Part shown: positions 411 to 18,885 of the stretch, piece after piece | Numbering within the stretch: position 1 is the stretch's first letter | Layout of the letters: every line of letters begins with the position of its first letter | NCBI GenBank assembly: GCA_002286715.1 | Contig: NSJX01000148.1 | Coordinates: 1,155-20,251, forward strand | Direction of reading: 5' to 3' | From: Dentipellis sp. KUC8613 | Lineage: Eukaryota; Basidiomycota; Agaricomycetes; Russulales; Hericiaceae | Length of the DNA stretch: 19,097 bases | Position numbers and translations under genes: made by a program | Notes under the pieces: model-generated | The model's database searches: none | Told to the model about the DNA's origin: nothing | Seen by the model: the letters and a program-made list of their open reading frames with translations, nothing else

Positions 411-510
411 TCTGATTCAGCCATGAATCACTTTTAATTAGAGACAGCTCGCAGACGCGTCGAAACTTTTAATCGCAGAAACAGGCAATGAATTCCCACG
501 GCCTTTTTGA
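411..510 (+). other. Helitron A 5' terminus
   Basis: About 100 bp resemble the 5' ends at 7791 and 11549. The terminal palindrome is followed by a TTTTAAT block, then a spaced ...TTTTAATCGC...CAGG..GGAAT.. region with TCCCACGG at 494-501. Bases 511-650 are AT-rich, with no gene or repeat that I recognise. Confidence 0.7.
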
Positions 511-649
511 CGTGTCAAACACTGGGCTGTGACTTCAAACTCATAGCCGAGCAGACTTCTATAATGATTCTTCAATGAATCTTTTTGACTCAGGTGAACA
601 TTTAGTTGTGTAAAAAAACAAATTTAAATTTCTATGAATGTATGTAGTC

Positions 650-2060
650 TACATGGTGAAAACTGGGACCTTCGAAGCCTTCGTGACATTACACAGGAAT
701 CAGTTGTTGCTAGGGCACACGGCACAACAACGAGGTGCACTGACAGCAACTTAGAGGGTGGGGCAGTAAGAGAATGTGATGCCCACGCCGTTGCTAGGGC
801 CCGCACGGCATGAAACAGCGGGTGCAGATGGGTAGAGGGCAGGTGGCGTGCCGCCTGCGCCATTGCTAGGGCATGTGCAGCAGCGACACACCCAGTGGGG
901 CCGCCAGACCGCAGGTCTGCAGCCAGTGAGAGGGCGCGTGGGGTGGCAAGCTGGAACGCAGCTAGCGCCGTTTCTACAACGCACGGTGCAGTGACATAGC
1001 ACGCGGGTGCCGACGTGGCAGGTGGAGCTGCCAGACGGCGGGAGGCGGCTGCGCGTGGGTCCAAAGGGCGTGGTGTGGCGCAAGAGCGCGGCGCGGCGAC
1101 GTGGTGAGGTGCGAGAGGGTTGCGAGGGCATGTCAGGGAGCAATACAATGCCATGACGCGCCAGAGCACGACGCGGGCGCGCCATGGGGCGCAAGAGGGC
1201 GCGACGGGGAGCGACGAGGAGCGAGGCGGCAGTCTAGACGGCGCGGCGCGGTGCAACACGGCGCCACGGCGCGCCACATGGCGCAATGGGGCGCGACAAG
1301 GCGGCACGCGGCACGGCGGGGGCCAGACGACGTAGTGTGGCACACGAGCGCAGCGAGGCAACATTGCGCGGCACGAGGGGGTCGCCAGGGGGCCTAGAGG
1401 GCGTGGCGGGGCGTAATAGAACGCCACGGGGCGCCAGACCGCGGCGACGGCACGCCACGGCGCGCGAGAGGGGTCCAGACAGCGCGCGACAGCCGCCCGG
1501 GGCTCGTGACGGCAGAGTGACGGCGTGTAGTGGCGGAGCGAGGGAGTGTGGTGACGAGTGAGCGGGTGGGAGGTGAGACAGCCCGGGCAGCACAACACAA
1601 GGCAGCGCAGACCGCGCAAAACGGCATGGACGGTGCAAAAGGGAAAGAGAGGCGCGCAAGAGGGACGGCGCGCAGACGGTGAGCACACGCAAAAGGGGAG
1701 GCGGAGGGGCAGGAACGAGGGCGCACAAGAGGTACATACGGATGCAATACGGCGCGCGAGATAAGATTAAACGGCAAGGGGAGCACAGGCGGCGAGCGCG
1801 CGCGAGACTGAGGGCAGAGCATACAACGTACGAGACGGCGGTGAACGATGGCGGGAGGTGGAGAGCAACAGCGACGAGGAGGGCGATAGAAACAAGGAGA
1901 CGAGCCGTGGGCACGGGCGCAAACGCGAAGGCGAGGACGCTGAGCGACAGCAGGAGGCGGCGTGTGCATACATGAGATAGCGGGTGCAAAAGCGGGCGCG
2001 AGATGGAGACCTCGCACGTGACTGTGGAGGACGAGGGGGGTGACGCGGGTGACGCGTCAC
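650..2060. repeat. Unit 1 G-arm: purine- and GC-rich low-complexity DNA
   Basis: The + strand is dominated by GGCGCG, GACGGCG and GAGGGCG words with few T's, and CpG is abundant. A degenerate minisatellite with TTGCTAGGGC headers occurs at 707, 791 and 863 (spacing 84 and 72 bp). Long open frames exist on both strands (for example 624-1688 and 1234-2127 on the minus strand), but they overlap one another and read as Ala/Arg/Pro/Ser-rich low complexity. That is expected where stop codons are compositionally rare. I assign no coding function. Confidence 0.75.
2049..2060. repeat. 12-bp perfect palindrome containing ACGCGT
   Basis: GTGACGCGTCAC lies at the inner end of the unit 1 G-arm. ACGCGT is the core of the MluI cell-cycle box known from yeast promoters. 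In such CpG-rich DNA it could easily arise by chance. Confidence 0.3.
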
Positions 2061-2105
2061 GCAGGTGGTGCACGGCAGGCCACAGAAGCGAGAGAAAGAA
2101 GGGGC

Positions 2106-2659
2106 GAGCCCGGTATCCCGGGCTCACGCAGTCAGTCTATGGACTCTATGCTGAATTCGAAACAGGTGACATGTACTTGCTATTCCCCTCCCTCTTTCTC
2201 TGGACATGTGTGCCTGCGTGCATCTGACAAGTGTGTGCATAACGTGTTGAAAAAGGTGTTCTGAGGGAGAGAGAGACACGATGTAAGCGAGTTCAAGTTC
2301 TCTGGGCTGCTCGAGCCTCGTCAGACAGCGCTTCGATCCCCGCTTGACATTCCGACATGTCGCCGGATGGTGCCGTATCGAAAGTACCGACGGACATTGA
2401 GTATTTTGGTCTCCGACTCAATCACAAGCCACAAGCGGCAGGCACGACTTGTCTGCTGTGTGCATTGAGGCATTCACGCACCATCCGCCCTCTAGCATCG
2501 CCTCCAACCACTATGCAATATTGGAGTCATGGGATTTGCCTGCGACAGGCAGGAGAGAAGCAGAAAGAGAGACAGCGGTTTCGGGGCAATACAGGCGCGT
2601 CACCGCCGCATCTTTTATTTTACCTTCGACTGACCACGCGAGCCCGGGATACCGGGCTC
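2106..2659. other. Unit 1 spacer bracketed by inverted 20-bp near-palindromes
   Basis: GAGCCCGGTATCCCGGGCTC at 2106-2125 recurs as its exact reverse complement at 2640-2659. Each copy is itself an 8+4+8 near-palindrome. They sit exactly where the G-arm ends and the C-arm begins, enclosing 514 bp of ordinary-complexity sequence. A minus-to-plus flip in base asymmetry happens here. An open frame (2357-3154, +) runs out of the spacer into the C-arm. Its first roughly 80 codons are not low-complexity, but nothing in them is recognisable. The segment could be a bidirectional promoter, a foldback element with palindromic ends, or the core of the composite unit. Confidence 0.6.
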
Positions 2660-5606
2660 GAATTCTTTATGCATCCGCATCCATACCCCCTTCCAACACG
2701 CCCACCGTTCCCTTCTCGCACTCACCGCCGTCCTCACGCACCACCGTGCCGCCCTCACTCGCCCTCACTCGCGCCCCGCAGCCACCCTCGCCGCCATCTC
2801 GCGCCCACCATCGCCCTCATACGTTCCACAGTCGCCCTCAAGCGCACCGTGCCGCCCTCGCTCGCGCCCTGGCGCCCCGCGTACGCGACCTCTTCGCCCT
2901 CCCCGCGCCGTCCATGTGCGCCCTGCACGCGCCGTCCGCCGCCTCCGCGCGCCGTCTGTGCCGTCCCCGCGCCGTCCATGCCGTGTGCGCGCCATCTAGG
3001 CGTGCTCCATGCGATTCAGCCGCCCTCCGGACGCTCCAACCACCTTGAGCCGCCCTCTCCGCCGCCTTTTGGCACCGTGCGCGCCCTCTTCGCGCTGTAC
3101 ACGACCTCTTCGCCCTCCCTGCGCCCTCCCCGTGCCGTCCTCGCCGCCGTCTAGCGCCGCACCGCACCACACACCGAAACTCTCCCGCCATTGCACACCC
3201 ACCCTCTCTTGCTGCCTCGCGCGCTTGTCCCTCACGCGGACCTCTCGCGCTGCCCAGCCGCACTCGCGCGCCTCACAGCCGCCCCCACCCGCCTCAGGTC
3301 TCCTTCACACGCGCCCTCGAGCCCCGCACGGGCTCTCGTGCCGCGCGCGCGCCGTCTCGTGCCCACCGCCGCCCTCGCGCTCCCAAGTGAAGCCCCCTCG
3401 CGCCCCACCGATGCCGCCTCGCGCAGCCGCCAGCCCCAGCCCCGCCGTCGCGCCCCAGGACCTTCGCGCGCCATTGCACGCCCTCATGCAGCCGCCGAGG
3501 TCCGTCGTGGCGCTGCCAGTCGACCTCGCACGCCACCAGGCGTACCGTACTCACATCGCCGTCACGCGCCACCGTTGCACCGCGACCACGTGCCGTCGCC
3601 CCGCCGTCATGCGCAGCAGCGCCGCCGTTCCGTGGCGAGGGACCCCACACCGACGCCATGTCAGCCTCCTCGCCGCTGTTGCGTCTCCCCGCGGCGCCAT
3701 CCTGCACCCAAGCGACGGCCGCGCGTCCTCGCGCTGCTGTCACTCATGGCCATGCCGCCGTCACATGTCCCACCGGCGCCGTTTTGTGGCTCGGGAGCCC
3801 ACACCGCTCTCGTATGCCCATACCGCTCTCGCATGCCCACACCGCCCCTTCGCCGCCGTCATGCTCCCCCTGGCCACCCACACGCGCCCCGCCCCGCCGT
3901 CGTGCGCCGCATTCTCGACCCCTCACAACTCGCGGCACGTCGTGCGCCCTCAGGTCCCATCAGGCCCTGCCATCTCTTACGCCCTCGCACGCCCCCACAC
4001 CGCCCCCACATCACGATAACGAGCGCTGTCTCGTGGCCCTGCGCCGCCGCATCAGGCCTGGCGACCTCGTCTCGCGGCTCGTGGCCTCACACCCTCTCGC
4101 GCTACCGCCACGCGCCCCTGTGCGTCTCACGCGCGCCCTCTCGTGGCCTGCGGCCCCGTGCGTTTCTCGCGCGCCCTCTCGCCGCTGTTGCGTGCTGTCG
4201 CCACGCGCCTCCTCGGCACGCACCCCCGCGTCACTGTCACGCGTGACCACGCTGCCATCACGCGCCCCAGCGGCGTCGTTTTATAGCTCTGGCCGTGTCG
4301 CCCTCCCACGCCCTCCCGCTGCCGCCAGATGCTCACCCCGCGCGTGCTCTCTCGCGACTCGCCGCCCTCTCGCGTCCACCGAGGCCCTGTCGCGCTCCTG
4401 GCCGCTGTCATTGCAGCGCTGTCGCGCCCCACAGCGTCCCTCGCTCGCCATGTCGGGCCGTACGCCACCCTCACGCCCCACCGCCCCTTCATGCGCCCCC
4501 GTCCGCGTCTCCTGCCACAGGCCAGCGTCGATCGCGCCCTGGCGCCCCGCGTGCGCGCCCTATTCGCGCTGTACGTGCCGTCCTGGCCACGTACACACCG
4601 TCCTCGCCACGTACGCGCCGTCCGCGCCGCTCCTGACCCGTTCACGCCGTCCTCGCGGTCCTCGCGCCATCCTCGCGCCCTCCGCCGTCTCCTCACGCCG
4701 TCCGGCGCCTCTGCGCGCCGTCCGCCGTCTCCGCACGCCCTCCGCCGCCTCTGAACGTCGTCCGCCGCCTCTGGACGCCCTCCGCCATCTCTGGACGCCC
4801 TCCACACGCCCTCCCTCCCTCGCCACGTACACGCCATCCTCGCCGTCCTCGCCGTCCTCGCGCCGTCCTCGCGCCCTCCGCCGCCTCTGCACACCGTCCG
4901 CCGCCTCTGCACGCCGTCCGCCGCCTCCTCAGGCCGTCCGCCGCCTCTGCGCGCCCTCCGCCGTCTTCGCACGCTGTTCGCCGCCTCCGTGCGCCGTCCA
5001 CGCCATGTGCGCGCCGTCCGCCGCCTCTGGACGCCCTCCGCCGTCTCCGCACGCCCTGCGCACACCCTCCCTCGCCACGTACACCCCGTCCTCGCCGTCC
5101 TCGCCGTCCTCGCCGTCTTCGCGCCGTCCGCACGCCATCCGCACGCCCTCCGCCGCCTCTGGACGCCCTTCGCCGTCTCCGCACGCCGTCCGCCGTCTCC
5201 TCACGCCGTCCGCCGCCTTTGGACGCCGTCCGCCGTCTCCGCACGCCTTTCCCATGCCCTCCCCTCGCTACGTACACCTTGTACGCGCCGCCCTTGACCC
5301 GTCCGCGCCGTCCGCGCCGTCCTCGCAGTCCTCGCACCGTCCTCGTGCCCTTCGCGCCCTCCTCACGCCCTCCGCCGTTTCCGCATGCCCTCCGCACGCC
5401 CTCCGCCGCCTCCGCACGTTCTCCACCACCTCCGCATGCTGTCCACGCCGTATGCGCGCCATCTGGGCGCGCTCGACGCGCTTCAGCCGCCATCTGGGCC
5501 CAACAACCGCCCTCCGTCTCCTTCTCTGCACTCTCATCCGCGCTCTCCGCCGCCGTCCCGCGCCGTATGTGCCCTCCTCGTGCCCTCTGCCCTCTGGAAC
5601 CTTGTG
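2660..5606. repeat. Unit 1 C-arm: pyrimidine- and GC-rich low-complexity repeat array
   Basis: The + strand is built of CGCCCTC, CGCCGTC and CGCCGCCTC words and is rich in CpG. From about 4690 to 5450 there is a clear ~21-bp minisatellite (ACGCCGTCCGCCGCCTCTG-type units). Block headers CGCCACGTAC or CGCTACGTAC recur at about 4585, 4606, 4821, 5073 and 5266. A diverged pair with a 497-bp offset is visible at 3750 and 4247, with shared GCCGTTTT-containing segments downstream. Open frames up to 650 codons (3658-5610) occur, but alternative frames are equally open. I do not call a protein. Confidence 0.75.
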
Positions 5607-5660
5607 GTAAGTTTCTTTTCTATCTTCCTAGTTTTTTGTCTTCACTTGAACTGCCCCCAG
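5607..5660 (+). other. Predicted short intron in unit 1 tail
   Basis: GTAAGT at 5607-5612 follows the C-arm directly. A pyrimidine-rich stretch and GCCCCCAG ending at 5660 give a 54-nt intron, typical of basidiomycetes. The homologous position in unit 2 also carries a donor (GTGAGT). This suggests a rightward spliced transcript with the C-arm as exon. Confidence 0.5.
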
Positions 5661-5845
5661 GCTGTTAAGTCTTTTCATTGCAATAGTATGTTGTCTTTTC
5701 AATCCCTGAGGCTTTCATTGATATTCAATTTGAACCTTTTGGATTACTCTTCACATAGTATACTAGTTCTTTTGCCTCCTTGTCTAGCTATCAATAAAAT
5801 GACTTTCAATGCTCTCACTATTTAGATTTATACTGGATATAATGC
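5661..5845 (+). promoter_or_regulatory. Conserved transcript 3' tail with AATAAA (unit 1)
   Basis: The block 5790-5819 around ATCAATAAAATG matches 11203-11232 of unit 2 at 27 of 30 positions (AATAAA at 5793-5798). Similarity extends upstream (GATTACTCTT near 5741) and downstream (GGATATAATGCATAG near 5832). It looks like a polyadenylation region for a rightward transcript leaving the C-arm. Confidence 0.5.
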
Positions 5846-5985
5846 ATAGGTCAAATAAAATCCAGCAAAATTCAGCAAAATTCAGTAAAATTAAATAGAG
5901 TCAGACAAAAACATATCACATAAGATAAGACCAAATAAAATTGGGTACCATGCAGACAAATCAAATCAATTCAGATCAAGTCAAA
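5846..5985. repeat. AT-rich segment with short tandem repeat
   Basis: A 10-bp unit close to CAGCAAAATT repeats about three times between 5860 and 5891. Looser AAATCAAAT and TCAGATCAAGTC repeats follow up to the Helitron-like end at 5986. Helitron C has a comparable short tandem repeat near its own 3' end. Confidence 0.5.
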
Positions 5986-6033
5986 CTAGTTGGGAGTGGC
6001 ATGCAGCAGATTCTGGTTCAGCCAGGGGGGGAT
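5986..6033 (-). mobile_element. Minus-strand Helitron 3' terminus (A subfamily)
   Basis: Read on the minus strand, this ends ...CTGAACCAG...CCACTCCCAACTAG, followed by T at 5985. It has the same CTAG end, the same 10-nt spacer and the A-type GCCAGGGGGG flank. The hairpin arm next to the spacer has decayed. It faces the plus-strand end at 6126, forming a 141-bp foldback (5986-6126) with an unpaired centre of about 37 nt. Confidence 0.6.
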
Positions 6034-6079
6034 ATTCCATGTTCATTATTACTTGTTGCTGAGATGAAATAGCCCCCCT

Positions 6080-6126
6080 GGCTGAATCAGATCCTGCCGC
6101 ACATGTGACGGCCCACTCCCAACTAG
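6080..6126 (+). other. Helitron A 3' terminus with hairpin and CTAG
   Basis: In order: an inverted copy of the 5' end (TGGCTGAATCAGA, 6080-6092), the hairpin 6096-6112, the 10-nt spacer CCACTCCCAA and CTAG at 6123-6126. The same order and spacing recur at 18526-18568. Confidence 0.75.
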
Positions 6127-6127
6127 T

Positions 6128-7616
6128 CAGAAGCTGGGAGGATCCAACATTTCAGAATCAGAAACTGATGCACTTGCAATTCGTGCAGCATTCACAAATG
6201 CCCAGAAACTGGCTGAACGCGCATCGGGACCTACTAAAGACAAATCATTTGAAGAGCTGGTACCGGGTCCCTACCAATCGTTCCGGGATGTCTTTGACAA
6301 ATCCACCTCTGAGCGATTGCCTGAGCGCCGCCCTTGGGATCATGCTATTGACCTGAAACCAGATTTTGAACCCAAGTCATGCAAAGTGTATCCCTTGTCC
6401 CCCAATGAACAACTCGAACTGGATGGTTTCCTGGATGACCATCTAAAAAAGGGTTACATACGACCATCTAAGTCTCCCATGGCTAGTCCGTTCTTCTTCG
6501 TCAAAAAGAAGGATGGCAAACTTCGTCCGGTTCAGGATTATCGCCAACTCAACAAAGGAACGGTCAAGAACGAGTATCCCCTACCTCTCATTTCTGAAAT
6601 AGTTGACAAACTCAAGGGTGCTCGCATCTTTACCAAGATGGATGTTCGATGGGGCTACAACAATGTGCGCATCAAGGAAGGCGACGAATGGAAGGCCGCA
6701 TTCAAGACCAATCGTGGATTATTCGAACCCCTAGTCATGTTTTTTGGTCTTATGAACTCCCCTGCAACCTTCCAGGCCATGATGAACGAACTCTTCAAAG
6801 ATCTAATTGACCTTGGCAAAGTTATCATCTACATGGACGATATCCTCATTTTTACTGAAACCCTCGACGAACATCGCCAACTTGTTCAACAGGTTCTCCA
6901 GCGCCTTCGGGATAATGACCTATTCCTCAAACCAGAGAAATGTTCCTTTGAGCAACCATCGGTTGAATACCTTGGACTCATTGTATCTCATGATAAACTT
7001 GCTATGGACCCTGTTAAAGTTGCTGGCATTTCAGAGTGGCCCACACCCCGCACAGTCAAAGATGTTCAGTCGTTTCTTGGCTTCGGCAACTTCTATCGGC
7101 GATTTATCAAAGACTTCTCCAAGATTGCACGCCCCATGTTCGATCTCACCAAGAAGGAACAGCCTTGGGACTGGACACCTGCATGTCAACTTGCCTTCGA
7201 TCAACTCAAGACAGCCTTCACCTCATCCCCTGTCCTCATTATGCCTGATCCAACTAAACCCTACCTAGTTGAAGTTGACGCATCCGACTTCGCTACTGGT
7301 GGCATACTCTCGCAGAAAGCTGATGACGGCCTGTGGCACCCAGTTGCCTATCTTTCTAAGGCTCTCTCAGATGCGGAGCGCAACTATGACATCTATGACA
7401 AGGAACTACTAGCTATCATCCGTGCTCTGGAAACCTGGCGCCATTACCTCGAAGGTTGCCCTCACCAAGTTGAAATCTGGACAGATCACAAGAACCTGGA
7501 GTACTTCAAAACTGCTCAGAAACTCAGTCATCGCCAAGCCCGTTGGGCCTTATTTCTGACCCGTTTTGATTTCACACTGGTGCACAAGCCTGGTGTCCAC
7601 CATCGCCCAGATCCGA
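6128..7616 (+). pseudogene. Ty3/gypsy pol fragment: linker, reverse transcriptase and RNase H
   Basis: This is the continuation of the pol interrupted at 410. A linker ([18 protein letters not shown] and onward) leads into the RT entry motif [14 protein letters not shown] near 6311-6352. RT blocks follow in the usual order: [54 protein letters not shown], and the catalytic YMDD at 6830-6841. The RNase H domain has its first catalytic Asp in VEVDASDF (7277-7279), then [13 protein letters not shown] and [10 protein letters not shown]. The frame is open throughout, with no internal stop. It ends in the motif that normally reads KPG..HRPDALSRR: after HHRPDP it runs into foreign DNA at 7617 and stops at 7661-7663. 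Integrase, chromodomain and LTR are missing. All catalytic residues I can check in RT are present, so the inactivation comes from the insertions rather than from point decay. Confidence 0.9.
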
Positions 7617-7668
7617 CTAGTGAGGAGTGGGCCGGCAAGCGGCAGGTTCTGATTCATCTATGAGGATG
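7617..7668 (-). mobile_element. Minus-strand Helitron 3' terminus interrupting gypsy pol
   Basis: Read on the minus strand, it ends CCACTCCTCACTAG, followed by T (complement of A7616). The hairpin GCCG/CGGC is intact at 7631-7643, exactly 10 nt from CTAG (7617-7620). The inverted 5'-like copy TCTGATTCATCTATGA lies on the plus strand at 7649-7664. I cannot find the matching 5' end to the right. Bases 7669-7790 are AT-rich without recognisable features. Confidence 0.7.
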
Positions 7669-7790
7669 GCAACATCTTCATTTCAATTCAATAAATACTT
7701 TCATGTATACAATTATTACACAATCCCATATATTATCATACATGATCTTCTATCCTTTGCAAAATGTATATCTTCTATTGTATTGATCTT

Positions 7791-8235
7791 TCTGATTCAT
7801 CTATGAATCAGTCTTAAGTATCGACATTCTCACTACGGTTTGCAGAATCGACATCCTCAACTTTTTCACTGCTTCGGGGAATGGTCTCCCACGGCTTCAG
7901 CCACAATTGTTCACTTCAAAGTGTAAACCATTTCTACACAGCTCAAATCTTGTTCAATTCACACAAAATTTGGGGCACATATAGATATACAATGTGAATG
8001 CCTAGCAGAAAATTAGCACAATTTTTGAATGCCTGGATCACTCAGAAATGCAAAGTCGCGCTGTGCTCGTGGCAGGCGGGTGCTGGCGGCCCGGAATCCG
8101 CGTCAACATCCTCTGTGTCGAGGACTTTTTCGCTGCTTCAGGCAACCAGTTCCCACACTTGTGATTTCTGGTGACGGCTAGCAGCGGCCCGAAATCCGCG
8201 TCAATGACTCTCAGTGGCTGAACATGTGCAAGAGC
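7791..8235 (+). mobile_element. Helitron B 5' terminus and subterminal region
   Basis: It starts TCTGATTCATCTATGAATCA, preceded by T (7790). The next ~100 bp resemble the other 5' ends, including CTTTTTCACTGCTTC and TCTCCCACGG. A second partial copy of this 5' region lies near 8100-8160 (CTTTTTCGCTGCTTC..GTTCCCAC). A 21-bp sequence containing GCGGCCC.GAATCCGCGTC-type bases is present at 8086-8106 and 8184-8204 (20 of 21 identical). I do not find a matching 3' end. Either it lies beyond 19097 or the element is truncated. Confidence 0.55.
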
Positions 8236-8271
8236 TTGAAAAGTCGAAATCCATGGATTTCGACTTTTCAA
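8236..8271. repeat. 36-bp perfect palindrome
   Basis: Centred on CCATGG (8251-8256), with 18-bp arms and no loop. Such DNA can extrude a cruciform. No transposon end or binding site that I know matches it. Confidence 0.9.
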
Positions 8272-8341
8272 CATTGTTATCTATTGCCATAAGCTCTTCA
8301 ATATAAAAGCATTTCAACACTGTACTATTGTGGAGCATTGA

Positions 8342-8516
8342 TCATGTGACATGATCACATGACCAGCCATCAAAACCTCCTGCCATCGCAGGAGGTTTTG
8401 ATGGCACTCAATGCCTGCAACAATTCACCTTTCAGGCAAGTTACCTACCGGGGACTGATCACATGATGTGGTCATGTGATGTGGGCGTCAATCACATGCG
8501 CTGCGATCGCAGCGCA
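8342..8516. repeat. Cluster of four further short palindromes
   Basis: TCATGTG/CACATGA arms at 8342-8362; 17-bp perfect arms at 8366-8382 and 8389-8405 with a 6-nt loop; 8-bp arms TCACATGA/TCATGTGA at 8459-8479; and a perfect 20-bp palindrome at 8497-8516 centred on GATC. The CACATGA/TCATGTG words of the first and third also match each other in inverted orientation, which suggests one larger foldback of about 140 bp. Confidence 0.8.
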
Positions 8517-8547
8517 CAGAATTGGCGCCTGGTGCAAAGACAGTTTA

Positions 8548-8640
8548 GTGGCATGAACAAGACTTGAACCGGCAGCCTCAAGCATTGAACTGCAAAAAGC
8601 CCATGGATTGCAAGTTAACCACTGAGCCATATGGCTTCAC
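8548..8640 (-). pseudogene. tRNA-like sequence with Pol III A and B boxes (SINE or tRNA relic)
   Basis: On the minus strand, TGGCTCAGTGG (8629-8619) fits an A box. GGTTCAAGTCT (8570-8560) is one or two bases from a B box, at a spacing compatible with an intron-containing tRNA. The acceptor and T stems pair poorly when I fold them, so I do not assign an anticodon. It could be a tRNA-derived SINE head or a decayed tRNA gene. No oligo-T terminator is visible close downstream. Confidence 0.35.
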
Positions 8641-8767
8641 TTCTAGTCAAATGATTCTACTACACATACCTACCCTCAAAACAACAAAAGTCCGGCTTAT
8701 ACAACAATTGTAATGACACTACATCTGAAAAAATTTCAATTTTCATAGTAAGGGGCCTAATTATCCA

Positions 8768-8946
8768 GACTATGGTAGCTATGGAATGAGATGGTCAACT
8801 ATGGAGGGTTCCATAGCACCCATAGCAGCCATAGATAGCTATGTTATTCCATAGATCCCATAGGTCCTAGTCAAGTATCCATAGTATCCATAGCCATATA
8901 TATTTAGCAGTCTATGCTATGGTGTCTATATGAACACCATAGCCAT
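8768..8946. repeat. CTATGG/CCATAG-rich block, left
   Basis: About a dozen copies of CTATGG or its complement, roughly every 8-20 bp, occur in both orientations. A matching block lies at 11386-11545. Dense short repeats inside both ends of an element are typical of subterminal transposase-binding sites in DNA transposons. Confidence 0.6.
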
Positions 8947-9059
8947 CACTACAAGATTTCATAATTTACTGATCACCATGGATATTGAGGTACAGAACAA
9001 GCAAAAAGAACATTTATATTACTATCATAATATTACATGTATATCATATGCAGGGATCA

Positions 9060-9830
9060 GACAGGTGCAAGAGACCGGCGCGAGGACACGGCACCGGCAC
9101 AACCGCGCGAAGGCACGAGAAGGGTGCGACGAGGACATGTGGAGGCGAGACGGCGGGGGCGCCGGCCGAAACGCGCGACAGCGTGAGGGGCGCGAAGGCG
9201 GCGCATAGGGGTGAGACGCGGGGGCGAGGGCACGACCGACCCGACGGCGCGAGGGGCGCGAAGGTGCGACGGCGAAGGCACAATGCGCGACGGGCTGACC
9301 AAGACGCGCGACGGCGCGACAGGCGCGAAGGCGGCACGTAGGGGCGAGACGCGGGGGCGAGGGCACGACCGGCGCGACGGCGAGACGGCGGCGCGAGGGG
9401 CGAGACGAGGGCGCCGAGGCGCCGACCGAGACACGCGACGGCGCGAGGGGCACGAAGGGCGCAACGGGGGCGTGGCGGGGGCGGGACGGGCGCAAAGGCG
9501 GCGCGAGGGGCGAGACTGGGGCACGTAGGGGCGGGACGAGGGCGCAACGGCAGAGACGGGGGCGAGGGCGCGACGGCGCGAGGGGCATGACGGCGCGAAC
9601 AGCGCGCGAGAAGAGCGCGACGGCGCTAAAGCGCGCGGGAATGACGGCGCGATGACGACGGCGCGAGGCGAGAAGCTGTCGGCGCGACGAGGGCACGACG
9701 GCGCAATGAAGAGGGGGAGGGCGCGCGAGGAGGGGCGTGCCTGACACTGAGGGGGCGCGGGTGCACGAGATGGCGACGTGCGCTGGCGAGCGACGTGTTG
9801 CTGGGGTCGCAGAGGGGCGGGGTCGTCAGT
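9060..9830. repeat. Unit 2 G-arm
   Basis: Purine- and GC-rich + strand made of GGGGCGAGACG, GGCGCGACGGCGC and GAGGGGCGCGAAGG words. GGGGCGAGACGCGGGGGCGA with following GGGCACGACC recurs near 9210 and 9342. Long overlapping minus-strand open frames exist, for the compositional reason given for unit 1. The left neighbour (8947-9059) is AT-rich with nothing recognised. Confidence 0.7.
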
Positions 9831-10500
9831 TATCGGGTACACTACGGCACGCTGAGCGTGCAGCAGATGCGACGTACCTGTCGTCGCTCTGCCCTTGCCG
9901 TCTCCATGGCGATTTCATCGATGGCGGCTGCGTGCGTGCGTATGCGCTAGCGGGGCGGTGGGGTGGCTGCGTGCATGCGCTTTGAGCATGCTGGATGGGA
10001 GGGAGGGAGGAGCCTGAGGGTACTCCGGTGAAGGAGAACAAGAGTTGAAGTCGCGTTTGCAATGGCGACTCGCGCATCGGGAATTGCCGGCCGCCTACGC
10101 ATCCCATTCGAAAGACGCGATTTGCGGACGCTTTAAAGTCGATAAAATACAGATTAAATTATATGTCATAGAAATAAGCTGTAAAGAGCCCCTTGACTAA
10201 TCTAGAAGCATTTGGACTCAAGCATTACCCATAAACTAGCAATATGTCCTTTGATTCCTGTCAAATTTGGACGGCGCGACTTGCGCTCAGTCTGGTGCCT
10301 GCCCGTACTTCATGCACAAAGACGTCGATACTTCACTTAATTACATGAAACTTCGCGCACAAGTAGACGCAAAGCTATACTACATACGGTATTACTTTGG
10401 TGATTTATGGATTAATCTTCTGGCCTTGGTATTCGAATGTGTGTCGTTGCTGATGCGGACTGTGGTCCGTGCGTGGGAAAGCTAGATGCCAGCGCGTTAA
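9831..10500. other. Unit 2 spacer
   Basis: Sequence of ordinary complexity between the arms. An open frame at 10267-10485 (starting at TTG, 72 codons) has mixed composition with a short hydrophobic run. It has no ATG at its start and no family resemblance, so I leave it uncalled. A small inverted repeat (GCGCGTT/AACGCGC) lies at about 10493-10513. Confidence 0.4.
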
Positions 10501-10985
10501 CACCCAACGCGCGTCGCCCCTCCTCCTTCTTTCCCCCATCCCACATCCCCCATCCCGCTCTCCACCTCTCCTCTCCTCTCTTCCCCTTTCACTCACCGCC
10601 CGCCGCGCTCACAGTAAACCTCTTTATTCATACAAAGTGTATAGCTAACGAGTACTTTTTTTGCTACGTCGCGTTTCAGGTACTATCACCCCCTCGCGCC
10701 TTCGCAAACCCGTGGCGCCGTTCTCGTGTCGTCACGCCGTTCCCGCCCTGTTGCACCCTTCTCGTGCCCTCGCCAGCCCCTCTCTCGCGCCCTCGCGCTC
10801 TCGTCACTCCCTTTTCACGCAGTCGCGCCCGCCTTGCGTCATCACACCCTCATCGCGCCGTTCTCGTGCCGTCACGCCGTTTGCGCGCCGTTGCCACCGT
10901 CTGCACTGTCGTGCCGTTGTCGCCGCGTGCCGTCGTCACTCATGTTCATGTGCCCTTCTTCGACATGTTTATGTCTTGCATCTTG
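10501..10985. repeat. Unit 2 C-arm (short)
   Basis: C- and T-rich low complexity, interrupted at 10615-10680 by an AT-rich patch ending GCGTTTCAG (10671-10679), a plausible 3' splice site. The following pyrimidine-rich block, 10680-10985, would be a single exon between this acceptor and the GTGAGT at 10986. Confidence 0.55.
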
Positions 10986-11028
10986 GTGAGTTTCTTCCTT
11001 TGCTTTCTACTTCTTCAACTGACTTCAG
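10986..11028 (+). other. Predicted short intron in unit 2 tail
   Basis: GTGAGT at 10986-10991, branch-like CTGAC near 11019 and CAG at 11026-11028 give 43 nt. A longer version using TTTTAG near 11077 is also possible. The donor context TTGGTGAGTTTCTT aligns with TGTGGTAAGTTTCTT of unit 1. Confidence 0.45.
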
Positions 11029-11300
11029 GTTTGTTACTACTTCTATCACAAAGGGTATGTTCTTTTTATCTTTTAGGGTTCAAGTGATACTCAACATGAA
11101 CTTCATAGATTACTCTTTGTTGTGTAGAGGTATAGTCATCAGTCTATCATCCTTGGGCTTTAGGTAGCTGTAGATTAGCTGTTTTGTATCTCTGGTATAA
11201 CAATCAATAAAATGGATTTCAATGTTCTCACTGTCTGGGATTGAGCTCAAAGAAGCACATGAAATATCCCACTTGGATATACTGCATAGTGGCAGGGGTG
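11029..11300 (+). promoter_or_regulatory. Conserved transcript 3' tail with AATAAA (unit 2)
   Basis: AATAAA is at 11206-11211, inside the 30-bp block shared with unit 1 at 27 of 30 positions. TAGATTACTCTT and GGATATACTGCATAG are also shared. After the common part the two units diverge. Bases 11301-11385 hold AT-rich, TATAG-containing sequence. Confidence 0.5.
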
Positions 11301-11385
11301 GTTGTATTGTATGTATAGATATTGGGGTTGTTATATTGTTTGCATAGTGCTTATAGTCTGTGTAGCTTGTTGAGCACCCAGAGCA

Positions 11386-11545
11386 ATCATAGTATAGTAC
11401 ATTGTTTCATAGCAGCCATAGCAATGTGCCTCATTTTCATAGCAGCCATAGCAATGTACCTAATCCCATAGCACTCCATAGCACTATCATAGCACTGTAT
11501 GGTAGTTCCATAGCCTATCCACAAAACTACATTGCTATGGCCCTA
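11386..11545. repeat. CCATAG-rich block, right
   Basis: Repeated CATAGCAGCCATAGCAATGT words, with a direct 30-bp tandem (copies start at 11408 and 11438), and several CATAGCAC units. It mirrors the left block at 8768-8946, and the two may bound one ~2.8-kb element containing unit 2. Helitron C is inserted just to the right, at 11548/11549. Confidence 0.6.
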
Positions 11546-11845
11546 TATTCTGATTCAGCTATGAATCAGTTTTAATTCCACATTCTACAGCCAAAAAAAC
11601 TGGTGCGCGTCTCCATTTTAATCGCCCCAACAGGAAGGAATCTCTCACGATCAAGTTGCATCGGGCATGTGGATTTTTGTAAGAGGCTTTGGGTTCAATT
11701 CATCTTTGGTGGCAGAATCTCAGCAAGCAAATAGTGTATTGCTCATCTGCATTTCAGTAAGCCAGAATCTTATACATTTTATTTGTTTATTGTTCAAGTT
11801 GCCGTGGTTTGTTGTAGTTATCAAATTTCATCTACTCTACAAGTA

Positions 11846-11893
11846 CTGGTGAGGAGTGGGCCGGCAAGCAGCAGGTCCTGATTCATCCAAGAA
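11846..11893 (-). mobile_element. Degenerate minus-strand Helitron 3' terminus
   Basis: On the minus strand it ends ...CCGGCCCACTCCTCACCAG, with CTAG mutated to CCAG and one hairpin arm altered (CAGC for CGGC). The 10-nt spacer and the inverted copy CTGATTCATCC are kept, and T follows at 11845. It is closest to the 7617 terminus and sits 298 bp inside Helitron C. Confidence 0.55.
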
Positions 11894-12300
11894 TTTGGCT
11901 ATATTGTCCTCTTGAACTCTTGCACAGTTTATATATTCATTGGACAGATGTATTTTTGGCCATTCTTACTGACCATGTTTTTCTAATAGGACTTGCACTG
12001 AACTTTGATTTAGTTGAATGTATTACAATCTATTCAAGTGATATACCTTATACCAACTTCAGATTGGGTAAAAACTATTTCTTGAGAGACATAGCATAAC
12101 ATGACATGTATATACTATACTACATACAGGGCATGCAGCATGGATAAACATTCATCAAAGTACAACTTGATATAATGAGAAACAGGTCAAACAAACTCAC
12201 CAATGAGAGAGGAAAAAGTAGTAGCTAGAGACCAAAAGAGATGACATTCAGTCTATAGGTTGATAAATATCCAAGTGAACTCACAATATGAGTGTAGAAA
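11894..12300. other. AT-rich non-coding segment
   Basis: No gene, RNA or strong repeat seen. On the minus strand, GTGAGTTTGTTTGACC (about 12198-12183) and GTGAGTTCACTTGG (about 12286-12273) are splice-donor-like. They lie just outside the G-arm, where a leftward transcript would exit. Confidence 0.3.
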
Positions 12301-14335
12301 GAGAACATTGACTGGCTGCAAGCAAGGTCGGGAGCACGAGACTACAATGCATGGGCATGTGTGTGGCAGGGGCGACAGACCACGAAACGACAGTGCGAAG
12401 GCGGCACGACGAGCGACGATGGCGCAATGATGGCGCACGGCGAGCGACGATGACGTGATGACACATGGCGGTGACACGAGGGCGCGAGGATGCGAGGACA
12501 CATGACAATGGCGCGACGTGTGGCGGCGGCGAAAGACGGGGGCGGTGGCGGGATGACGAGCGGTGAGAAGGTGCATGGAGCGGCGAGACGGCGCGCGGGG
12601 CAGTGAGGGCGCACAGCGCGCAAGCCGTGCCGTTGCTAGGGTGTGCGGAACGATGGCACATGGGCACAAAGCAGCTGCATGCAGACCCGGAACAGCTGCG
12701 GCGGGCCGGCGAGGGCGAGGGCACGCACGACGGCAAGCGAGATGATGTGGGATGTGGCAGCAGGGGGCGCAAGGCGGCGGCGCGAGAACTTGTGAGGGCA
12801 GCGCAGGGCTACGCGAGAGGGCACCACCAGGCACAATGCAGCGGTGCGGGGGCGTGAGATGGCGGCATTGAGGTGGCGGAGTGGGGGTTGCGTGGCGGCG
12901 ACGTGGCGGAACGAGATGGCACCCTTGAAGGGTGAGACGGCAGTGTGGGCACGTGGCGGCAGCGTGAGCACCTGCGAGGGTGGCGCGGGGCTACAAGCCG
13001 CAAGACAGCGCTGCCAGGCATGACGCGGCGGTGGAGGGGTGCGAGATGGCGCCGTTGGGGTGTGTGACGGAGGCGTGGGTGCTCGTTACGGCGGGGCGGC
13101 GCTGCGCGAGACGGCGGGTGGCGGGGCGCAGACGGCATGAGGCGAGGCGAGGTGTTGGTGGGGCACCAGACGGCGTCGGTGAGGCACCAGACGGCGTCGG
13201 TGGGGCGCAAACGGCGTCGGTGGAGCGTAGACGGCGGGGCATGGGGCGCGGCTGAGACGCCAGATGGTGTCGGTGGGGAGCAGACAGCGTTGGTGGGGAG
13301 CAGACAGCGTCGGTGGGCGCAGATAGCAGGGCGCGGGGCGCAGACGGCGAGGTGCGGGGCGCAGACGGCAGGGGGCGAGGCGCGGCGTCAGTGGGGCGCG
13401 AAGATGGTGGAGCGAGGTGTGCGGACGGTGGAACGGGGCATGCAGACGGAGGGGTGGGGCACGAGACGGCCCACGGTGCACGAGGCGGCCCAATGGTGCG
13501 AAAAGGGCGGGGCGGGGCGCGAAGACGGGGCGGCGTGGCACCAGAGGTCGTCGCTGGGGCGTGGGGAAGCGTCGCTGGGGCGCAGGGTGGCGTTACTGAG
13601 GGCGTTGCTGAGGCTTGACACGGCGTCGGTGGGGTGTGAGGCGGTTGAGAGGGTGTTGGTGGTGCAGGCGGCTCCCGGCGTCGCTACGGCACGAGACGGC
13701 GCCGCTAAGGCGCGAGGCGGCGTCGGTGCGGCACCAGACGGCGCCAGAAGGGCGGGGCCAGCTACGCAGGGGCGCAAGGCGGCCTCGCGGGGCACCAGAG
13801 CGCATTGCTAGGGCACGGATTGGCGTCGGTGGGACGCGGTGTGGCGTCGCTGGGGTGCGGGAGGGTGTTGGGGTGCGAGGCGGCGTCCGAGGGCGCGGCG
13901 CGAAGAGGGCGCGGCGTGGCATTGAGAGAGGGCGGCGCGGGGCGAAGACGACGGGAAGGGGCGAGAGACAGCCCCATGGCGCGTGAAGACGGCGTGATGG
14001 GGAGCGGAGACGGCATGGCACGGAACCGGTGCGGCGGGGCATTGACGACGCGCGGTGCATCGAGTAGACGGCGGGGGAGGCGCGAGACATCGGGACGGGG
14101 CGCGTAGACAGCGTCGGGGCGCGAAACCGATGAGGCGGGGCGCAAAGAGCGCGTGGCGTGATGTGAAGAAGGTGGGGTGGGGCGCGAAGAGCGCACGGCG
14201 GGGCATTGGGAGCACTCAGCGGGTCGTGCAGATGGAGAGGGGGGCGCGAGACGGCCCACGTGGCATGCAGATGGCCGGGGGGGGGGGGCGAGACGGTGCG
14301 ACGAGGGTGCGACGAGGTTGATATGGCGCGGCGCA
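12301..14335. repeat. Unit 3 G-arm
   Basis: Purine- and GC-rich, with TTGCTAGGG words at 12633 and 13805 as in unit 1. A 21-22-bp minisatellite occurs at about 13160-13320 (GGCACCAGACGGCGTCGGTG and GGGGAGCAGACAGCGTCGGTG variants). A run of 12 G lies at 14277-14288. Overlapping open frames on both strands are treated as compositional. Confidence 0.75.
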
Positions 14336-14750
14336 GCACGATACGGCGCGACTCGACGAGGGCAGCAGGAGGATGTCAGTGTCATGAAGAGAATGCGAAA
14401 ACCGATGCGACGCACCTATGAGACCCCTGACCATATCTCTACTTCTCGCCATCCAGCATCCCAGCCATTAATGTTGTAAGGATACTTATGTGCGTCAGCA
14501 TTGAGGATCGCGCGTGGTGAGCGAGGCAGTCGCGGCGGCTGTTACGAATTGCAGCTGACGAGATTTGGGCAAAGTATGACGCACAGAGGGCCGCGCAACC
14601 ATTAGCGCGGCCCTCTGTGCGTCATATTCTGCCCAACTTAGAGTTGGCGTGAATAGGAAGAATGCGTAGTCCGGCTGTCGCCACAGACGGACTGTGCTTC
14701 AGTCTCCGCTTCAACATCCGACGCGTCGCCACGTGGTGCTGTTTCGATGA
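14336..14750. other. Unit 3 spacer
   Basis: Ordinary-complexity DNA between the arms, containing the long hairpin at 14565-14636. No recognisable gene. Confidence 0.5.
14565..14636. repeat. Long perfect hairpin
   Basis: Arms 14576-14596 and 14605-14625 are perfectly complementary over 21 bp, with an 8-nt loop (AACCATTA). After a 4x4 mismatch, TTGGGCA/TGCCCAA adds seven more pairs (14565-14571 and 14630-14636). It is similar in shape to a pre-miRNA, a cruciform or a foldback target, but not assignable to a family. Confidence 0.85.
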
Positions 14751-17700
14751 CCCCTTCGCGTCGCCCTCGCCCTTTCGCACTCTTGCACCCCTCGCCTCCC
14801 CCTCCTGTCGCGTCCTCTTCTCGCCAGTTCGCGCTGCCCTCGTGCCCCTAAGCGCCGCCCTCGCGCCAGGTCGCACAGCCGTCCCGCCCCCTTGCCCCGT
14901 CTCGCCCCTCTGCGCCGCCGTCGCCCCGTCGCGCCGCCCCTCACCCCTTCTCACCCCTCGTGCCCGCGCGCTGTCTCGCGTCGCCCTCGCGTCGCCCTCG
15001 CGTCGCCCTCGCATCGTCTCGCGAGGCCGTCGCGCCCCTTTCGCCCCCCGTCCCCGTCGCCGCCCTCTCGCGCCCTAGCGCGTCCCGCCGTCGTCCGGGC
15101 TCACCCACCGCAACCTTCGCTCGTTCACCGCCGCCCTCGCCGCCCCTGTTCGGCCTCCGCCCGCCGTACACGCTGTCTACGCGCCGCACGTGCCCTCCAC
15201 GCGCCATTCACGGCCTCCAGCCACCCTGCGCGACCCTGTCCGCGCTCTCCACGCGTCCGTGCCCTCCACACACTGCACACGCCGTCCGCCGCCCTCTCTG
15301 CCGCCTCCACGCACCCTCCGCCGCCCTCCACACGCCGTCCGCCGCCGTCCGCCTTCCTCTTCGCCACCCTCTCCGCCCCCTCCGCCGCTCTTGTACGCCC
15401 ACCGCCGCCCTCTCCGCCCCCTCCGCCGCTCCCGTACGCCCATCGCCGCCCTCATATGCCCATCGCCGCCCTCGCCGCCCTTGCCGCCCTCTTCGCCGCC
15501 CTCTCCGCCGCCTCCGCCGCCTCCTCACGCCGTCCACGCGCCCTATGCGCCCTCTCCGCCCTCTCCGCCTCCTCCTCACACCGTCCACGCGCCCTCTCCG
15601 CCTTCTCCGCTCCCTCTTCGTGCCCCCCACGCGCCGTCTGCTCTCTCCACCTCCCTCGTTCGCCCACCGCCGCCCTCGACGCCCTCGACACTGCCTCCAC
15701 ACGCGGCATGCGCCCTCCGCGTGCCGTACACGCTCTCTCCCCGCCACACGCGCCCTCGACACGCCGTCCTCACGCCGCCTGCGGCCTCCTCACGCCGTCT
15801 GCCGCCTCCACGCGCCATCGACTGCAGCCTCCGTGGCCTCCGACCGCCCTGCACCGTCGACACCATGTGCGCGCACTCCGCTGCCTCCGCATGCCGCACA
15901 CCGCCTCCGCACGCCCTCAGCGCCCTCCGCACGCCCTCAGCGCCCTCCGCACGCGGTCGACGTCCTCTGCACGCCGCACACCGCCTCCGCACGCTCCATG
16001 CCGCCCTCGCGCATCCTCTCGCACCCCAACACCGCCCCAACGCCGCCCTCGCGCCCCTCAACGCCGCCCTCACGCACCCCAGCGCTGCCCCAGCGCCGAA
16101 CCATTGCCCTTGCGCGCCGTCGCACTCACCGCCGCCCTCACATGCCCTACTGCCGCCTTCACGCCCACCTTCACGCACCCCGGGCCGCTCTCGTTTGCGC
16201 CCTCCAACCCCACACCCTCCCTGCCACCCTCACAAGCCCCACAGCTGCCCTCGAGCCTCGCGCGCGCGCTCTCGCACCCCACACCCTCCTTCTTCGTCCT
16301 CTCCGCCCTCACACGGCCTACCGCCGCCTTCACGCGCCCCAGGACACCCTCACCCACGCTCTCGAGCCCTGCGCGCTGTCTCTCGCGCCCCACAGCTGCC
16401 CTCGCGCCCCCGCATGACCTCTGCTGCGCTCTGCAGCAGCCGTCTTCACCCTCTCCCACCACAGCTGCCCTCGCCCGCCTCACAGCCGCCCTCGCTCGCG
16501 CACTCGCGCCCACCTCCATCCTCGCACTCCCACCGCCGTTTTCGCGCACCCCACCGCCGCCCTCGCTAATCCACTCCCGCCCTCGCGAGCCCCCAGCCGC
16601 CGTCGGACGCTCCCGCACGCTCACCGCCGCCCTCTCGCGCCCCAACGCCGCCCTCTTGCGCCTGGCTGCCCTTCTCGCGCGCCCTCTCGTGCTGTCTCGC
16701 GCCCCTCGCGCACGCCCCTTTGCGCCGTCGTTTCCCCCCTCGGGCCGTCGCCGCGCCACCCTCACGCCGTCACCGTGCCACCCTCATCGCGTCGCCGTCA
16801 CGCCGGTCTCGCGCCGTCTCGCGCCCCTCGCGCCGCTCAGCTCTCGCGCCCCTTCGCGCCACCGGTGCGCCCCTCTTCGCGTCGCCCTTGCCCCTCGTGC
16901 CCCTTCACGCCGTCTCGTGCCCCCCCTCACGCCATCTCGCACCGGCGTCGCGCCCCTCGTTGCGCCCCTCTCTGCCCGTCTCGCACCCCCGTCGCCCCGT
17001 CGCCGCGCCACCGTCGTCGCGTCGCCGCCGCGCCCCTCGTCGCTTCATCGTCGCCCCGCTCATTGCATCGCCGTCGCCCCGCTCGTCGTGATGCCGCCGC
17101 GCCCCTCTCTCCCTGTGTCGCGCCGTGTCGCGCCGTGTCGCGCCGTCACCGCGCCCCCACCGTCGCGCCGTCTCGCGCCCCTCGCGCACGCCCCTTTGCG
17201 CCGTCGTTTCCCCCCTCGGGCCGTCGCCGCGCCACCCTCACGCCGTCACCGTGCCACCCTCATCGCGTCGCCGTCACGCCGGTCTCGCGCCGTCTCGCGC
17301 CCCGCGCGCCGCTCTGCTCTCGCGCCCCTTCGCGCCACCGGTGCGCCCCTCGTCGCGTCGCCCTCACTCCTCGTGCCCCTTCACGCCGTCTCGTGCCCCC
17401 CCTCACGCCATCTCTCACCGGCGTCACGCCCCTCGTCGCGCCCCTCTGTGCTCGTCTCGCACCCCCGTCGCCCCGTCGCCGCGCCACCATCGTCGCGTCG
17501 CCGCCGTGCCCCTCGTCGCATCATCGTCGCCCCGCTCATTGCATCGCCGTCGCCCCGCTCGTCGTGATGCCGCCGCGCCCCTCTCTCCCTGTGTCGCGCC
17601 GTGTCGCGCCGTGTCGCGCCGTCACCGCGCCCCCACCGTCGCGCCGTCTCGCGCCCCTCGTGTGCGCCCCTTTGCGCTGTCGTCCCCCCACTCGTCGCCG

Positions 17701-18290
17701 TTGTCGCCACGCCACCCTCTTCGCGTCGCCGTCCCCCCACTCGTCGCCGTCACCGTCGCCCCGCTCGTCGCCGCCGGACCCCTCTCGCGCCGTCTTGCGC
17801 CCCCCTCGCGCAGCTGCTGCGGCCCCCTCGCGCAGTTGCTGGCCCCCCCTCGCGCAGTTGCTGGGCCCCCCTCACGTCGTCGCTGCGCCCCGCTCGTCGC
17901 GTTGCCCGCTTGTCACGTCGCGGCACCCCGCTTGTCGCGTTGCCGTCGCACCCCTCTCGCGCACACCCCTTTGCACCGTCGTCGCCCCCCTCGCGCCGTC
18001 GCCGCGCCACCCTCACGCCGTTGCCGCCGTGCCACCCTCGTCGCGTCGCCATCACACCCATCTCGCGCCGTCTTGCTCCCCCCCCCTCGTGCCGTCTTGC
18101 TCCCCCTCGCGCCCCCCGCTTGTCGCGTCGCCGTCGCTCCGCTTGTCGTGACGCCATCACGACCCTCTCGCGCCGTCTCGCGCCCTTCACGCCACTCTGC
18201 TCTCGCGCCCCTTCACGCCGCCGTCGTGCCCCTTCGCCCTGTCTCCCGCCCGTTTGCGCCCTTTGTGCCCTTTCATACTGCTGTCATCCC
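14751..18290. repeat. Unit 3 C-arm: pyrimidine- and GC-rich array with 476-bp tandem repeats
   Basis: CGCCGTC, CGCGCCCCTCG and CGCCGCC words run for 3.5 kb. The longest open frame is 891 codons (14892-17567, +), but other frames overlap it widely. Near-identical 476-bp copies occur at about 16690-17165 and 17166-17641, followed by diverged copies to the end. Because 476 is not a multiple of three, each copy changes reading frame, which argues against a conserved repeat protein. Confidence 0.75.
16690..17641. repeat. Two nearly identical 476-bp tandem repeats
   Basis: Anchors such as CGCCCCTTTGCG recur at 476-bp spacing (about 16713, 17189 and 17665). The first two copies differ at only scattered positions by eye. 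The third is diverged, and a further relative near 17964 is offset by 299 bp. This indicates recent local duplication. Confidence 0.8.
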
Positions 18291-18521
18291 TTAGAAATTC
18301 ATAGAAATTCATAGAAATTCAGACATTCAGATGAAACCAGATAAAAAAATAATCTCTGACTTGCTTTTCATAATCAAAGTCGGACAGCTTCTAGAGATGT
18401 CAACAATAAACATGTACAGGTGTTGTGCATGTTACTATAACATGTAACATGAAAGTCATAGCTCTTGGCATCAAGAACTGACCAATAACATTACAAGTTG
18501 AAGGAAGTGAATGCTTTCCCC
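18291..18521. repeat. AT-rich 3' segment of Helitron C with a 10-bp tandem repeat
   Basis: AGAAATTCAT-type units repeat three times at 18293-18320. The remainder is AT-rich, with no intron or AATAAA tail like those of units 1 and 2. Confidence 0.55.
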
Positions 18522-18572
18522 TAGCTGAATCAGATCTGCCGCACTTGTGACGGCCCACTCCCAACTAGTCAA

Positions 18573-18885
18573 TGTTGGTTGGTGGCTGATGTTGGTGCTT
18601 TATCTTGGGTTTTGGTGCTCAGTATTAGTGCTTGGTGCTCAGTCAGGGTACTCGGTGGCTGGTCTTGGTATTTGTGATTGGTGTTCATCAGAAGAAGTTA
18701 AGGAAGGCAATGAGATAAGGAGTGATCCTTGACAGTCATCATGGTAGTGTCAAGGATCACTCCTTATCTCATCGCTTTCCTCGACTCCTTCCAACAACCA
18801 CCAACCACCAACCACTGAGACCAAGCACCAAACCCATGACCAAGCACCGACACTGATACCAACACCAATACCAACATTTCCGAGG
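18573..18885. repeat. Foldback repeat with 25-bp perfect stem
   Basis: Perfect arms at 18710-18734 and 18748-18772 (25 bp, 13-nt loop) form the centre. Outside them, the left side is rich in TTGGTGCT/TTGGTGG words and the right side in the complementary CCACCAA/AGCACCAA words, so the whole ~310 bp can fold back imperfectly. It begins within a few bases of the Helitron C 3' end. Confidence 0.7.

Follow-up and report, generated by a model that had tools for sequence, protein, structure and literature searches.

Strand-asymmetric arms in a Dentipellis genome look like C-rich exons of outward-pointing, non-coding units carried by Helitrons and a terminal inverted repeat transposon

Examination of a 19,097-nucleotide stretch of the Dentipellis sp. 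KUC8613 genome (contig NSJX01000148.1, here C43, positions 1155-20251; the whole stretch is called the window) reveals three composites, U1 to U3, in each of which a G-rich arm, a spacer and a C-rich arm follow one another. The signals in and around the arms look like those of units that point outward from the spacer with a C-rich sense strand. On the strength of these sequence signals we consider it likely that the arms are large C-rich exons of outward, spliced, non-coding units, which are carried by Helitron2-type and terminal inverted repeat (TIR) transposons. Such a unit would start with a promoter and a short first exon, followed by an intron of about 45-51 nt and by an exon that opens with a hairpin (9-bp stem) and runs on as about 0.5-3.6 kb of degenerate 10/20-bp C+T-rich minisatellite. 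In certain copies this exon would be followed by a donor, another short intron, a poly(A) signal and, last, the Helitron 3' end. A composite would consist of two such units placed head to head, in one order that would have spread within a Helitron subfamily, and U2 would be a related form of the cargo in a TIR transposon. Outward C-rich transcription, which a first-pass annotation of the window had suggested, is the interpretation that best fits the putative intron where the arm begins, the donor where it ends, the AATAAA and the mostly divergent neighbours.

The genome searched comprises 34,145,342 b in 171 contigs. Three similarity searches with U1-type modules yielded 87 loci, which together with a complete single-arm element (L088) and the window make up 52 merged pieces of 204,629 b. 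For each genome motif search, namely both Helitron ends and the arm-start site described below, the reversed-pattern control gave 0 matches.

Skew measurement confirmed the order G-rich, spacer, C-rich proposed by the first-pass annotation, as well as the flip of asymmetry at a spacer that is itself without skew. In U1 the GC skew is +0.26 in the G arm (701-2175, z 8.1), 0.00 in the spacer (2176-2575) and -0.36 in the C arm (2576-5625, z -16.8); the corresponding values are +0.28 (9026-10125, z 7.7), -0.07 (10126-10425) and -0.32 (10426-10975, z -5.9) in U2, and +0.36 (12301-14425, z 13.8), +0.02 (14426-14650) and -0.42 (14651-18300, z -21.7) in U3, the z values being inflated by repeats because bases are treated as independent. 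AT skew shares the sign of GC skew in all six arms, and at the level of 50-base blocks G exceeds C in 87 of 93 blocks of the three G arms and C exceeds G in 142 of 145 blocks of the three C arms. The length of skew runs proved uninformative, as shuffled GC-rich sequence also gives long segments (dinucleotide shuffles, up to 1700 b for the whole window and up to 2875 b for the pooled arms). Given that the segment caller is this permissive, the claim is based on how consistent the blocks are, on the orderly change of sign and on recurrence at other loci. When the arms of one unit were compared for a long inverted repeat linking them, only short matches came up. Two composites do lie within Helitrons, as the same annotation had held (U1 in 411-6126, U3 in 11549-18568), and U2 lies in a TIR element. 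The features of the first Helitron, Helitron A, and of U1 are:

411-6126, plus strand: non-autonomous Helitron A with U1; 5' end at 411, 3' CTAG end at 6126, T outside both
411-431, plus strand: hairpin-forming 5' end of Helitron A, CAC class
701-2175, minus strand: G arm of U1, being the C-rich arm of the leftward unit (from skew; its reverse complement is 87% similar to C-type arms at C60)
2105-2135, minus strand: arm-start site of the leftward unit, listed as C43:3259; the upstream AG|GT is lost in this copy
2176-2575, no strand: spacer with putative back-to-back promoters; related spacers at C8 and C168
2576-5625, plus strand: C arm, putative C-rich exon (from skew)
2595-2642, plus strand: putative intron 1 of the rightward unit, with donor GC rather than GT (sequence compared with the family)
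2630-2660, plus strand: arm-start site of the rightward unit with its hairpin; 70 genome copies of the 33-base version
5607-5660, plus strand: putative 3' intron, GTAAGT to CAG (12 occurrences of the donor context in the pieces, acceptor from the sequence)
5793-5798, plus strand: AATAAA
6098-6126, plus strand: 3' end of Helitron A, type A; 43 genome copies at up to 2 mismatches

The arms of this family open at a 31-bp arm-start site, of which the 33-base version occurs 70 times in the genome at up to 3 mismatches; the pieces contain 54 sites with up to 6 mismatches allowed. A C-rich arm follows in 48 of the 52 copies in the pieces that have at least 300 bp downstream, and 23 of the 54 sites have a same-strand Helitron 5' end 577-670 bp upstream. 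Of 51 usable copies, 43 have an AG|GT at -42 to -30 relative to the site; control windows without overlap have it in 0-7. The 400 nt upstream of the sites fall into 13 blastn groups (the largest with 24 copies); of the 12 that have usable data, 11 include at least one copy with AG|GT. Furthermore, CTGAC and GCGAG are nearly fixed, a pattern that fits splice signals and points to a putative intron of 45-51 nt, in which CTGAC would be the branch point and GCGAG the acceptor. Nine stem pairs of the hairpin are standard, with G-T included, in 31 to 34 of 34 distinct site sequences, and the loop-closing positions, the two beside the centre, match in 14 of the 34. Compensatory change was dropped as evidence for structure, since the stem has few changes and these include both kinds; what is conserved in the hairpin may be the sequence itself.

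The bodies of 85 arms longer than 400 b, 105,450 b in all, contain 47.8% C, 19.5% T, 22.0% G and 10.7% A on the outward strand. Their self-match peaks at lags of 9, 11, 20, 31, 40, 51 and 60 (0.398 at lag 20 over a baseline of 0.326), a rhythm of about 10.2 bases, and the arms are thus degenerate 10/20-bp minisatellites. Some arms end with GTAAGT followed by AATAAA: in the pieces, 500 b of GC-rich (at least 0.68) and C-skewed sequence precede 9 of the 12 donor contexts, and AATAAA follows within 600 nt in 7 of the 12. L088, on the minus strand of C97, has all the parts in succession: the 5' end (359298), the arm-start site (358618), a C-rich arm roughly 2.5 kb long, the donor context (356083), AATAAA and the 3' CTAG end (355490). 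The extreme skew would most likely have come from repeat expansion of a C-biased transcribed stretch. According to the available text of McLean and Tirosh (2011, PMC3315797), the coding strand is C-biased at the 5' ends of fungal genes; the sense strand proposed here is likewise C-rich after the start, but the skew is much more pronounced and persists through kilobases of repeat, and their paper deals with unicellular fungi.

It is rather unlikely that the arms are instead a neutral by-product, that is, an untranscribed minisatellite grown inside transposons whose splice-like and poly(A)-like signals are inactive remnants of a captured gene. The non-coding, repeat-like nature of the arms agrees with such an origin, as does the degeneracy of donors in several copies, with AG|GT absent from 8 of 51. 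Several further points weigh against the exon reading. Both intron donors of U1 itself are degenerate, and the putative acceptor, GAG, is of an uncommon kind. No C-rich arm stands behind 4 of the 52 arm-start sites (C60:1505, C20:29414, C76:460729 and C168:11902), the last of which was probably called on the wrong strand, since the genome search lists C168:11911 on the minus strand. Three of the 12 donor contexts have no preceding GC-rich stretch, and only 5 of the 12 have a Helitron 3' end within 600 nt. In U2 and U3 no arm-start site was found at the tolerance used, so the case for the intron comes from the U1-type family. The pieces were chosen by similarity to parts of U1 and to the C97 single-arm element, which biases the frequencies, and among the matches listed none of the 12 Helitron_like_N (RepHel) loci in the genome is tied to the Helitron ends described here. 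Against a neutral by-product, the intron signal is retained in the stated proportions of copies and upstream groups even though most surrounding bases vary, and CpG is not depleted in the arms (observed/expected 1.23, versus 0.71 elsewhere).

Database gene models treat the arms as long coding exons of proteins rich in Arg, Pro, Ser and Ala, and two predicted Dentipellis sp. KUC8613 proteins, P0121 and P0122, lie in such arms (residues 1-439 of P0122 are 100% identical to C113); we find a coding role very unlikely. The arms do hold long open frames, which are expected because A is rare in them, but just 24 of 143 gaps between related arms (33 alignments of 28 pairs, which are non-independent) are multiples of three, as sequence free of frame constraint would give. 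The lag analysis is devoid of a 3-base rhythm, and Pfam gave no match in the four arm open reading frames (ORFs) tried. Indel lengths and the lag analysis thus disfavour coding arms, and suggest that the gene models in such arms are not proteins. Among six ORFs of the window the Gypsy pol ORF was the sole Pfam match, and Rfam and tRNA scans of the window gave no matches.

R-loops require G-rich RNA. That the G-rich strands are the functional part, forming R-loops or G-quadruplexes as the first-pass annotation had suggested, is therefore highly improbable on the first count, as the outward RNA would be C-rich; on the second, the asymmetry is consistent and the G strand has 199 quadruplex motifs as opposed to 0 on the C strand, but mononucleotide shuffles have a mean of 351 (standard deviation 12, n=20), the opposite of enrichment. 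We give almost no credence to a rolling-circle DNA element whose transferred strand, being C-rich, would stay unfolded while strands are displaced, which would suit the 23 sites with arm and Helitron 5' end on the same strand but not the G arm that composite Helitrons bear on that strand too, nor the TIR element with the same arrangement.

The composite, taken at first as the basic unit, gives way to the single outward unit. Only 18 of the 54 arm-start sites form divergent pairs (9 pairs, up to 1.5 kb apart) and 36 are without a divergent partner, in counts that partners past piece ends would escape; one pair, at C153 (1171 bp apart), represents two elements, because a 5' end lies between. The regular distance of 23 sites from a same-strand 5' end and the 87% similarity of the reverse-complemented U1 G arm to C-type arms elsewhere likewise speak for single units. 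It had also been asked whether arms occur independently and in random relative orientation: solitary arms exist, but the relative orientation of close neighbours is not random, as 19 of 28 neighbouring pairs within 1.2 kb in the pieces are divergent (G then C), 3 convergent (C then G) and 6 tandem (4 CC, 2 GG). Two of the 19 (C10 and C167) are separate elements, since a Helitron 5' end lies inside the pair, and five have no 5' end within reach. In 12 of the 19 a Helitron 5' end, of the CAC class in 11, lies outside the G arm, no more than 1.2 kb away and in Helitron orientation; at C153:50739 another arm intervenes, which leaves 11 direct cases. Thus one Helitron subfamily repeatedly shows 5' end, G arm, spacer and C arm in this order. 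The two halves of the C128 spacer resemble different promoters, one that of C42 (75% over 269 b), the other that of C97 (73% over 183 b), which suggests that spacers were put together from the promoters of different single units.

The first-pass annotation saw no standard transposon structure here and a candidate for an undescribed system; in fact the units are delimited by Helitron ends or by a TIR element, and are cargo of known transposon kinds rather than a free-standing system. The non-autonomous Helitron ends read T|TCTGATTCA…CTAG|T and elsewhere in the genome also hold arms, often single ones. The genome has 207 5' ends (up to 2 mismatches) and, besides the 43 type-A 3' ends, 158 of type B (up to 3 mismatches); in the pieces the outside base is T at 49 of 50 5' ends (C in one) and at all 34 3' ends. 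Both ends fold into hairpins under RNA parameters. The 5' TC and 3' CTRR of canonical Helitrons (Helitron1) are present (TCTGATTCA… and …CTAG), but insertion is not between A and T, the flanks being T on both sides. As in Helitron2 and Helentrons, insertion is T-adjacent and there is an asymmetric terminal inverted repeat, with CTGATTCAG at the 5' end and CTGAATCAG lying 36 bp short of the 3' end, at 6082-6090. The consulted portion of PMC5148889 defines insertion as TT for Helentrons and TTTT|T or C for Helitron2; by these definitions the elements are nearer Helitron2 than the canonical type, yet their 3' CTAG is canonical. In the portions of PMC5148889 and PMC4067079 consulted, the Helitron2-type FoHeli of Fusarium oxysporum, Helentrons and HINE/DINE-1 elements share with them the 5' hairpin, the 3' hairpin, T-rich insertion and a 9-bp asymmetric inverted repeat at the 5' terminus and about 36 bp inside the 3' end, and some HINEs hold tandem repeats. 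Unlike these relatives, the Dentipellis elements have a CTAG 3' end, no RepHel partner linked among the matches listed, and as cargo a long strand-asymmetric C-rich arm with intron-like signals. HELPO1 of Pleurotus ostreatus, as far as the consulted part of PMC4289320 describes it, is similar in that fungal Helitrons carry expressed gene-like transcription units of unknown origin; HELPO elements carry predicted genes and insert in AT, whereas the elements here have cargo free of frame constraint and sit between T and T.

The other two composites of the window comprise:

8721-11548, no strand: U2 element, cut on its right side by the U3 Helitron; left TIR at 8721-8737
9026-10125, minus strand: G arm of U2 (from skew)
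10426-10975, plus strand: C arm of U2 (from skew)
10986-10991, plus strand: donor-like GTGAGT behind the U2 C arm (from the sequence); AATAAA at 11206-11211
11549-18568, plus strand: Helitron with U3; 5' end 11549-11569, 3' end 18540-18568
12301-14425, minus strand: G arm of U3 (from skew)
14565-14636, no strand: U3 spacer hairpin, a long one with arms of 32 nt and 94% complementarity
14651-18300, plus strand: C arm of U3, parts of which are 87-92% similar to arms at C152 and C17

The U2 terminal inverted repeat, ACATCTGAAAAAATTTC, occurs at 22 genome sites, of which C97:11691 (plus) and C97:14537 (minus) bound one copy; its flanks TGGCGGGTG / TGGCGGTTG agree at 8 of 9 bases, in this one copy only, and are a candidate for the target site duplication of about 9 bp expected of Mutator-like elements. 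No second U2 TIR was found on the window contig among the matches listed (up to 1 mismatch). The U2 spacer and 3' part have 70 genome matches, self included, and the C163 copy (L090) also has a G arm. Tentatively, we regard the U2 element as Mutator-like. Pack-MULEs are Mutator-like TIR elements with cargo, and the U2 family resembles them in its short TIR, in one full copy with flanks that agree at 8 of 9 bases and in its GC-rich cargo, but its TIR is just about 17 bp and the assignment rests on one copy. The cargo of U1 and U2 may share descent, though similarity between their 3' parts is limited to 63 b (78%) and 66 b (73%). Hairpins like that of the U3 spacer, which differs from the U1 type, are present at C150:853015, C48:9695 and C150:896407. 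The U3 C arm also contains a 476-bp tandem duplication at 16687-17753 (93% matching).

Transposons with transcription units are already known; what is unusual here is the strong skew, the recurring module of intron, hairpin and C-rich exon, and the G-spacer-C composites in two transposon classes. No such units are described in the titles and abstract openings of the CC-licensed PubMed Central literature among the matches listed. If transcribed, the module would give one fungal genome about 70 mobile, Helitron-borne copies of a splice acceptor with a C-rich exon, alongside a TIR element whose composite is similar. It would then be testable whether transposons retain non-coding cargo for their own benefit, and how repeat expansion amplifies transcription-linked skew. 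A more speculative proposal, which we regard as doubtful, is that the 45-nt intron, hairpin and C-rich minisatellite exon form a portable non-coding cassette that two transposon classes acquired and kept because it helps them, with repeated exchange of its promoter; it might, for example, serve as a silencing-resistant, CpG-retaining region or supply a C-rich RNA that binds a host protein.

As for the surroundings, Helitron A splits a Gypsy-type pol gene (1-410 plus 6127-7663), whose nearest database match is a Dentipellis fragilis protein (88%, covering 85% of the query). The flanking pol pieces match neighbouring parts of database protein P0016, and the pol frame fits around the element if one T is either the element's own or duplicated. 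A type-B Helitron 3' end at 7617-7642 (minus) and a further Helitron 5' end at 7791-7811 (plus), with no matching partner found in the window, are probably nested insertions. Outside the window, a Helitron_like_N match at C3:13569-14210 lies inside an unusually long ORF, given as 5385 amino acids. Beyond the end of the U3 Helitron, at 18671-18811, there is an inverted repeat with 64-nt arms that are 81% complementary and 13 nt apart.

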